NCBI GenBank assembly: GCA_014728175.1
Contig: WJMA01000015.1
Location: 1 to 64,000, forward strand
Source: Candidatus Fermentibacterota bacterium
GTDB lineage: Bacteria > Fermentibacterota > Fermentibacteria > Fermentibacterales > JCC-6
Length of the DNA: 64,000 bases
Direction of reading: 5' to 3'
Made by a program: the position numbers and the translations under genes. Shown here one piece after another: positions 23,359 through 25,582 of the stretch (positions are counted from its first letter, which is position 1; the number at the start of each line of letters is the position of its first letter). The notes under the pieces were generated by a model. It was not told where the DNA came from and did no database searches. It saw only the letters and a list, made by a program, of their open reading frames with translations.

Positions 23359-23478
23359 GCATATGCCCGCCCTCTCCATGCCGCTCCACCTTTCGAACCC
23401 GTCCGATGTTGACTTCACCGACCGGCCCCTGCAGGATAGGCCCTTGCCTGGGGCCATAATCAGGGAACGGAGCGGCGT

Positions 23479-25203
23479 TTGAGCGTCATCGTATCCAGAT
23501 CCGCGGGTTTCTGCTGGGGGGTCAGGCGGGCCGTCGACCTGGTTCTTGCCGAGCTGAAGAGCGGGGAGGGCCCTTTTAGTGTATACGGCCAGCTGGTTCA
23601 CAATCCCCAGGTGATAGAGGCTCTGCGCAAGAGAGGGGTGGATATCTGCGAGGACCCGGCGAAGATGTCCGGCGGTACCCTCTTCCTCCGCACCCACGGT
23701 ATTCCACTGAACGAGCACAGAAGCCTGGGCGACCTTCCGATAGCCGTACGGGACCTGACCTGCCCCCGGGTGCGCCGAGCCCTTACCCTGGCCGCCGAGA
23801 AGAGCGGCGAAGGCTACGATTTGGTCATACTGGGCGACGAGGGGCACCGGGAGGTAACCGCTCTCAAGTCGTACGCGGGGAAAGGCGCCGTGGTCATCTC
23901 CGGGCCTTCGGACGTCGATGGTCTGGGTGAGTTGGCCCGGCCTTTCCTGCTTTCCCAGACCACCCAGAGCACCAGGACCTTCGATGATACTCTGCGGGCG
24001 ATGAAGAAGCGTTTTCATAACCTTGAGCACGCCAACACTATCTGCGGGTCCACCGAGGAGAGACAGAGCGAGCTTCGGGCTCTCTGCCCCCGGGCCGATT
24101 GCGCGGTGGTGGTGGGGGGACGGAACAGCGCCAACACGGGAAGATTGCTCCAAATCGCCCGCGAGGAGGGCCTGCCGGCCGTCCAGGTAGAGACCTACGA
24201 GGAGCTGAACCCCGAAGATTTCAGGGGCTGTCACCGGATTCTGCTTACCGCCGGCGCCTCCACCCCGGGTTGGAGCATAAGAAAGGTAAGAGAAAGGCTA
24301 TACGAGATACAGGGCTCCAGGGCCAGGATGGGTGCGCTGAGGACGCTGGTCCGGAACACGGTTTTCGGAAGCGCTCATATCCCCTTGGTGGCGGCTGCCA
24401 TAGCATTTGCGGGCAGCAGGGTGCTTGGTGGATCCGGCTGGCTTCTGGGAGGGGTCGCCGCCGGCCTGACCCTGTACGTGCTGCACGTTTTGAACTCGGT
24501 GATGGAGACCGGGGTCTGCCGGCTGACCTGCGAGAAAAGGCAGGAGTACGTCGCGGCCCGGAAAAGGATCCTTCTGGGGAGCGCGTTCCTGGCACTGGGC
24601 GGCGCTCTGGCCTCGGCGGTGGCCGCCGGGGTGATCTGGGTGGCTGCGGTGGCCCTGTCCCTCCTTCTGTTCCTGCTCTACTCCCTCCCCGCCCTACGCG
24701 GTCCCGGTGGAAGGCCGGTCGGCCTGAGGGCGATTCCCGGGGCCAGAGACGTCCTGTTCTCCACCGCATGGGCGTTCCTGCTAGCTTTACTGCCCGGCGT
24801 GCTTGCCCGCCCCGTCGTACCCCTGGGCGCCGTGGTCTGCTGGTCGATCGCCCTGTTCAGTCTTTTCCTGGGTAGGTCGCTGCTGGTGGATCTGGTCGAC
24901 CTCCAGGGCGATGCGCTCATGGGTATGGACACCATACCGCTCAAGCTGGGCAGGAACAGAAGCCGCAAACTCTTGTACGTAAGTTTATTGGCGGCAACAT
25001 TATCCATGCTGGTCGGAGTGGTCCTCGAGGTGCTGCCTATCTGTTCGGCCTCCTTCGCGGTGGCGCCGGCGTGGTTGCTTGCCGGATACCGCACGGTTCG
25101 GTCGACGCCGTTTCCCTCCGAGCTCTCCGCCAGGACGGCCTCCGACGGAGCGCTGCTTGCCTCGGGGCTGGTTCCGGGGATAGTGTGCCTGTTGCTCGGA
25201 TGA
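23479..25203 (+). CDS. ispH: IspH-UbiA fusion: HMBPP reductase with membrane prenyltransferase domain
   Basis: A 574-residue two-domain protein. Residues 1-285 are 4-hydroxy-3-methylbut-2-enyl diphosphate reductase (LytB/IspH, last step of the MEP isoprenoid pathway): cluster cysteines C12 (GFCWGV), C95 (LTCPRV) and C189 (TICGST), histidines H41, H73 and H123, and catalytic E125 (EGHREV) are all present. Residues ~290-574 are hydrophobic with several transmembrane helices and a UbiA second motif DLVDLQGD (D471-D474-D478); the first motif is poorly conserved (LHVLNSVMETG around 335-344). The start is TTG. I infer product channelling from IPP/DMAPP formation to a prenyl transfer, but the UbiA half may be non-canonical. 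Confidence 0.85.
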   Translation: MSVIVSRSAGFCWGVRRAVDLVLAELKSGEGPFSVYGQLVHNPQVIEALRKRGVDICEDPAKMSGGTLFLRTHGIPLNEHRSLGDLPIAVRDLTCPRVRRALTLAAEKSGEGYDLVILGDEGHREVTALKSYAGKGAVVISGPSDVDGLGELARPFLLSQTTQSTRTFDDTLRAMKKRFHNLEHANTICGSTEERQSELRALCPRADCAVVVGGRNSANTGRLLQIAREEGLPAVQVETYEELNPEDFRGCHRILLTAGASTPGWSIRKVRERLYEIQGSRARMGALRTLVRNTVFGSAHIPLVAAAIAFAGSRVLGGSGWLLGGVAAGLTLYVLHVLNSVMETGVCRLTCEKRQEYVAARKRILLGSAFLALGGALASAVAAGVIWVAAVALSLLLFLLYSLPALRGPGGRPVGLRAIPGARDVLFSTAWAFLLALLPGVLARPVVPLGAVVCWSIALFSLFLGRSLLVDLVDLQGDALMGMDTIPLKLGRNRSRKLLYVSLLAATLSMLVGVVLEVLPICSASFAVAPAWLLAGYRTVRSTPFPSELSARTASDGALLASGLVPGIVCLLLG

Positions 25204-25222: not shown

Positions 25223-25582
25223 ATGATGTCTGCGAGGTGTACATGGCCGATTATGCTGGTCGGTGTGGCCTGGGTAGGGCTTCTGAGTTGCGGAGAGCCT
25301 GCGGTACGTACCACCGAGGGCCCGGAGCAGGTGGATGATCCTTTCGACAGGGTAGTGGTCACCGGCTCGGTGGTCAATCTGCGTGGTGGACCTGGAACCC
25401 GGTACACGGTGGTAGGTAGGGTGAAGTGGGGGGATACCCTGGTGGTGACCGGAGCGACCACGGGATGGCTGAGGGTCTATGACCAATCGGAATCCCTGTT
25501 CGGCTGGATATTCGAGGAGCTAACCGATCCCGCCCAAGACGGGGGCGGGGAGAATGAAGGCCGGGGAGACGATTCCCGTTGA
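25223..25582 (+). CDS. SH3b-domain lipoprotein
   Basis: A 119-residue predicted lipoprotein; the ATG at 25223 is directly followed by a second ATG at 25226. The signal ends in GLLSCGEP (lipobox Cys). The mature part is one bacterial SH3 domain (VVVTGSVVNLRGGPGTRYTV ... GDTLVVTGATTGWLRVY ... GWIFEELT), commonly a peptidoglycan-binding module. The tail is Gly/Asp/Glu-rich. It lies 19 bases after the IspH-UbiA gene and probably shares its transcript. Confidence 0.85.
   Translation: MMSARCTWPIMLVGVAWVGLLSCGEPAVRTTEGPEQVDDPFDRVVVTGSVVNLRGGPGTRYTVVGRVKWGDTLVVTGATTGWLRVYDQSESLFGWIFEELTDPAQDGGGENEGRGDDSR

Follow-up and report, generated by a model that had tools for sequence, protein, structure and literature searches.

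IspH-UbiA 'Rosetta stone' fusions, mainly from Desulfobacterales, were described by Rao et al. (2015; PMC4746011), who proposed for them the same idea of localisation and supply that is considered for the protein studied here, and who could not express IspH-UbiA at full length. Two further systems with the UbiA fold are relevant. The DGGGP synthase of M. jannaschii (DGGGPS) strongly loses activity when D66 or D70 is changed to Ala or when the Asp residues of motif 3 are mutated, and these mutants bind GGPP almost as before (PMC9385802). UBIAD1, also of UbiA fold, is a GGPP-responsive protein that binds to HMG-CoA reductase (PMC9314443). The IspH-UbiA fusion type has been known since 2015 and the Fermentibacterota protein is a member of it; this study adds the range of the fusion, a loss of the motif-1 Asp that is shared among its members, and the finding that pathways for the usual acceptors are missing.

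The fusion gene and its spread

The window analysed is a stretch of 64,000 nucleotides (contig WJMA01000015.1) from a Candidatus Fermentibacterota bacterium, and the contigs of its closest named relatives are those of Candidatus Fermentibacteria and Aegiribacteria. The fusion gene and its parts are as follows.

23466..23472, + strand: possible ribosome-binding site aacggag, 6 bases 5' of the TTG start, inferred from the sequence
23479..25203, + strand: IspH-UbiA fusion gene, one open reading frame with a TTG start, 574 aa and no internal stops
23479..24318, + strand: IspH (LytB) domain, residues 1-280, from PF02401, TIGR00216 and invariant residues
24346..25200, + strand: UbiA-fold membrane domain, residues 290-574, predicted N-terminal helix and nine membrane helices
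24493..24519, + strand: degraded UbiA motif 1, N339-S340-x-x-E343-x-x-x-C347 (canonical NDxxDxxxD), from the alignment
24679..24699, + strand: UbiA motif 2-like stretch, with Y401 in 34/34 and residue 407 mostly basic
24736..24750, + strand: conserved PGARD loop, residues 420-424 (PGS-K/R-D in relatives)
24889..24912, + strand: UbiA motif 3, D471-x2-D474-x3-D478 (DLVDLQGD), from the alignment

A small SH3-domain protein is encoded at 25223-25582 (+); its start lies 20 bases past the fusion stop codon and the two genes may be co-transcribed.

The fusion, which the first-pass annotation had read from this one sequence, recurs widely. It was found in 40 of the 41 searched relatives of the order, at similar length and with a few copies broken by contig ends. 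The one relative that lacked it (G036) is a genome 80% complete with zero IspH matches. Because the fusion in these 40 relatives is about 50% identical, chance or a frame artefact is excluded. Outside the order, at least 23 of 297 genomes, belonging to at least 20 families, had a match spanning both domains. As dsrA was above the cut-off in only 4 of these 23 genomes and had zero matches in the fusion's own genome, the fusion is not a trait of sulfate reducers and the confinement to them reported by Rao et al. no longer holds. Several changes were needed to explain the fusion state on the IspH tree, in which the deep branches were weak.

The IspH domain

Residues 3-274 matched PF02401 (LYTB/IspH) with 249.7 bits (E 3.9e-74), TIGR00216 scored 229.8 bits, above its cut-off of 187.85, and the nearest solved structures were IspH (3dnf, E 1e-51). 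The three Fe-S cysteines C12, C95 and C189, as well as H41, H73, H123 and E125, all of which had been listed as kept from the single sequence, were invariant in 57/57 aligned fusions, as were the further IspH residues T161/T162, S217, N219 and S261 of the domain. The fusion was also the sole IspH match in its own genome by profile search. Its sequence thus identifies the N-terminal half as the cell's HMBPP reductase, which would catalyse the last step of the MEP pathway (HMBPP to IPP and DMAPP).

Fold of the membrane domain

The C-terminal ~285 residues had been described as a membrane domain related to UbiA, and the model agrees with this: AlphaFold2 on alignment A1 (pLDDT 82, pTM 0.80) gave an N-terminal helix followed by nine membrane helices, and D471, D474 and D478 are present. 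The model of the full-length fusion was poor (pTM 0.58), and domain contacts between the two halves were unsupported. The Pfam search gave a divided answer. PF01040 reached only 20.3 bits on the 574-aa protein alone, below the cut-off of 34.2, so that the single sequence did not pass as UbiA; the relationship stood at the family level, where PF01040, and no other Pfam family, matched 12/12 members of alignment A1. Three distant fusions (L046, L048 and L049) scored above the Pfam cut-off by themselves.

In Foldseek searches against the PDB, the best matches were DGGGP synthase, UBIAD1 and the UbiA proteins of A. pernix and A. fulgidus. Their TM values were about 0.47-0.65 and their probabilities 0.99-1.00, with weak E-values (best 1.5e-3); soluble trans-prenyl synthases, which have a related fold, were interspersed among these UbiA matches. 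Profile-profile comparison (hhalign) depended on the reference set, with 97.6% (E 4e-12) against a broader set of canonical UbiAs and ~1% against a narrow set consisting mostly of heme O synthases. Likewise, the Fermentibacterota-only profile of the domain had zero PDB matches, and the broader profile A3 found the M. jannaschii DGGGP synthase in the PDB (E 2.9e-11). The best curated model was the prenyltransferase NF010117 of NCBIfam (PRK13591; E 2e-10), yet its 40 bits fall short of the cut-off (238), so the domain is not a member of that family. A membrane domain unrelated to UbiA was not what emerged, as Pfam, Foldseek and hhalign all pointed to UbiA; structure prediction and profiles together show the membrane half as a predicted true UbiA fold.

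Motifs of the UbiA half

Motif positions were set by MAFFT and profile alignments, which placed N339-S340-V-M-E343-T-G-V-C347 on the canonical NDxxDxxxD. The position of motif 1 is secure because many far fusions align without gaps through the following N-E-P-x-R, e.g., NHYTDPSPANFNEPYR. The first UbiA motif had been called weak, rightly so: the 574-aa protein has N339, S340, E343 and C347 where N-D-xx-D-xxx-D is expected, and the looser pattern N-x3-D/E-x3-D also fails at C347.

For comparison, 57 UbiAs from the same genome set were used as controls, their loci being picked without a motif filter on the matches. In these the motif-1 N was found in 56/57, the second position was acidic in 56/57 (Glu in several) and the third was Asp in 57/57. 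The first Asp of NDxxD was present in 23/57; since it varies in normal UbiAs, its loss was not counted as evidence. In Fermentibacterota, on the other hand, the third position was S, V, L or C in 34/34 and Asp in 0/34, the second was Glu (E343) in 32/34, and N was kept in 5/34. Among the other fusions (n=23), N was found in 18, the second acid in 17 and the third acid in 5, the latter thus missing in 18/23; both acids occurred in three (L046, L048 and L138). The accompanying Fisher values leave relatedness out of account and were not read as probabilities.

Motif 3 (D471, D474, D478) was complete in 34/34 Fermentibacterota, D478 and G482 were present in 57/57 fusions, the basic residue 423 of the PGARD loop was found in 34/34 Fermentibacterota and 22/23 other fusions, and Y401 (34/34) and W431 were strongly conserved. 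The second and third positions of motif 1 correspond to D66 and D70 of the M. jannaschii DGGGP synthase. As the Asp mutants of that enzyme hardly lose GGPP binding, a domain without the D70 equivalent could still hold a prenyl diphosphate.

Standalone relatives and variants

The A3 profile search covered 290 genomes. Fused domains matched at full length with E 1.9e-56 or better, and after a gap the remaining matches began at E 8.6e-29. Of the standalone relatives, three (L164, L165 and L167) were read, none with the canonical N-x3-D/E-x3-D motif 1. In L164 (1760-6247) and L165 (5542-9977), which are loci from two genomes of one family, the standalone UbiA-fold protein lies directly behind succinate dehydrogenase/fumarate reductase genes; that of L167 is located elsewhere. 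In the tree with 59 canonical UbiAs, the three standalone relatives and the fused domains formed a clade (100/99), within which the order was unsure and the branches were long. The next tier of A3 relatives, L166 and L168, had a normal motif 1.

In L168 (4484-7395), the UbiA gene with normal motif 1, a geranylgeranyl reductase gene and a GGGP synthase gene are consecutive, and this bacterial locus is possibly an archaeal-type ether-lipid cluster; such a potential has been proposed for the FCB group (PMC7852524). A different variant was found in G118 (L169 646-2142, -), in which IspH is fused to a shortened UbiA-like domain of ~220 residues (498 aa in total) that Pfam does not detect as UbiA. 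The fusion in both L045 and L137, like the standalone relative of L164, has as a neighbour a MurA-like gene of the EPSP-synthase family; the Pfam scan of this gene covered L045 and L164.

Isoprenoid genes and possible acceptors

The fusion's own genome was searched family by family and had one polyprenyl synthase match and one UppS match. When the fusion was compared with separate UbiA genes, the only other UbiA above the cut-off was a decaprenyl-phosphate phosphoribosyltransferase (DPPR synthase; NF008977, E 4.8e-75). The DPPR synthase gene (G000:C52, locus L001, 1384-2391, -) adjoins an ORF that is IspE-like by eye, another MEP-pathway gene.

Acceptor genes were sought in draft genomes of unequal completeness, on which the following absences rest: MqnA/D was not found in the own genome and 31 order relatives, MenD was not above the cut-off in 17 genomes, and PcrB/GGGP synthase was not above the cut-off in the own genome and 32 order relatives. 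The archaeal-type lipid route through DGGGP synthase was rejected on the PcrB result in the Fermentibacterota examined. The menaquinone route (MenA/MqnP) was likewise set aside, with MqnA/D not found, MenD not above the cut-off and the other UbiA being the DPPR synthase. Because genes of these two routes were not found, the usual UbiA acceptors are not evident from the gene content. No conserved neighbour hinting at an acceptor was seen at six fusion loci or at further loci.

Proposed role of the fusion

Based on these results, the protein is best read, with a probability of about 0.5, as an IspH tethered to the membrane by a UbiA half that would still bind a prenyl (di)phosphate and is doubtful as an ordinary prenyltransferase. 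On this view the UbiA half would keep IspH on the inner side of the cytoplasmic membrane. With the motif-3 half-site and the basic loop kept, binding of an isoprenoid (di)phosphate has most likely persisted, and loss of the motif-1 Asp would preclude the ordinary two-site, Mg-dependent prenyl transfer in Fermentibacterota. The gain would lie in membrane tethering, and possibly in feedback or a local supply, and not in a fixed hand-over of IPP/DMAPP. Of the two ideas in the first-pass annotation, that the fusion puts the soluble IspH at the membrane is supported by the UbiA-fold domain with its nine predicted helices and should hold. The direct passage of IPP/DMAPP to a prenyl transferase is unproven and supported by none of these results: the genome has a polyprenyl synthase and a UppS of its own to build chains, the motif-1 Asp is missing, and neither a quinone nor an archaeal-lipid acceptor pathway was found.

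Several observations go against this preferred reading. An acid is retained at E343 in 32/34, and Glu also occurs at that position in several controls, so partial metal binding is possible; the conservation of motif 3, Y401 and W431 resembles an active pocket more than a bare anchor; L046, L048 and L138, with both motif-1 acids, could be ordinary enzymes; and the Foldseek E-values are weak (best 1.5e-3).

Some of these observations also favour the strongest rival, a possible but less favoured one, which follows the proposal of Rao et al. (2015) and of the first-pass annotation. Here the UbiA half would be a working prenyltransferase whose metal site is non-standard (E343 and motif 3), and the fusion would serve to raise IPP/DMAPP locally. 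The motif-3 Asp residues and Y401 in 34/34 and E343 in 32/34 speak for it, as do the maintenance of the fusion in at least 20 other families, the three fusions with both acids and the fact that the nearest models of the domain include DGGGP synthases. However, the third motif-1 Asp is gone in 34/34 and present in 57/57 controls, and the acceptor routes through MqnA/D, MenD and GGGP synthase were not found in the Fermentibacterota examined. UbiA enzymes usually take longer prenyl diphosphates rather than the product of IspH, which also counts against an active transferase.

Rather unlikely, and drawn from analogy, is the further reading that the UbiA half is a prenyl-diphosphate sensor regulating IspH, a bacterial parallel to UBIAD1. 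The response of UBIAD1 to GGPP and its binding to HMG-CoA reductase make a sensor role conceivable rather than demonstrated. Such a role would fit a domain that has lost motif 1 and retained motif 3 and the basic loop, the continued GGPP binding of DGGGPS mutants at the equivalent residues (PMC9385802), and the way in which UBIAD1 senses GGPP on a different enzyme of isoprenoid synthesis (PMC9314443), with 8djk among the fold matches. On the other hand, the argument is purely one of analogy, UBIAD1 itself works as an enzyme as well, and the poor full-length model (pTM 0.58) leaves domain contacts unsupported. In a broader form, and with similarly low odds, the clade of UbiA-fold domains, most of which are fusion partners of IspH, might have given up ordinary prenyl transfer and by the same analogy be a membrane receptor for prenyl (di)phosphates that tunes or positions IspH. 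Finally, that the membrane domain is not UbiA, or that the fusion arose artificially through assembly or a frame error, is highly improbable, for it could point to the 20.3 bits of the 574-aa protein against the cut-off of 34.2 but is already contradicted by the same fusion in dozens of independent genomes, by the UbiA fold and profile evidence, and by L046, L048 and L049 exceeding the Pfam cut-off.

The significance of the fusion lies in the combination found here: the fusion is kept across the phylum and in many other families with a catalytic Asp missing and the predicted phosphate-binding half-site kept. The question is thereby made testable, as the UbiA half is either an anchor or sensor for IspH or a site of prenyl transfer with an unusual metal site. 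Either answer would fill a gap dating from 2015 and would bear on the organisation of the end of the MEP pathway.

Comparison with known systems

Like the Fermentibacterota protein, the fusions of Rao et al. (2015) have UbiA C-terminal to IspH in the same domain order on a single polypeptide, with a membrane location proposed. They differ in that they are reported to carry two DXXXD repeats and to come from sulfate reducers, whereas the Fermentibacterota fusion has a degraded motif 1 and is found without dsrA. The IspH-RPS1 fusions of the same study also have IspH with a C-terminal partner, but the partner consists of ribosomal S1 repeats and there is no membrane domain. The M. jannaschii DGGGP synthase (6m31/7bpu) has the same fold and is both the best PDB sequence match and the best fold match of the domain; its DFEDMEGD aligns with DLVDLQGD of the fusion. 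In contrast, its motif 1 (N62/D66/D70) is intact and required for activity, and that of the fusion is degraded; GGGP synthase, on which its substrate supply depends, was not above the cut-off in Fermentibacterota. UBIAD1 on HMG-CoA reductase (8djk) resembles the fusion as a UbiA-fold membrane protein tied to an isoprenoid-pathway enzyme; unlike the fusion, it is a separate protein, belongs with the mevalonate pathway and also makes menaquinone-4. If the receptor reading were true, the fusion would be to bacteria what UBIAD1 bound to HMG-CoA reductase is to the mevalonate pathway.
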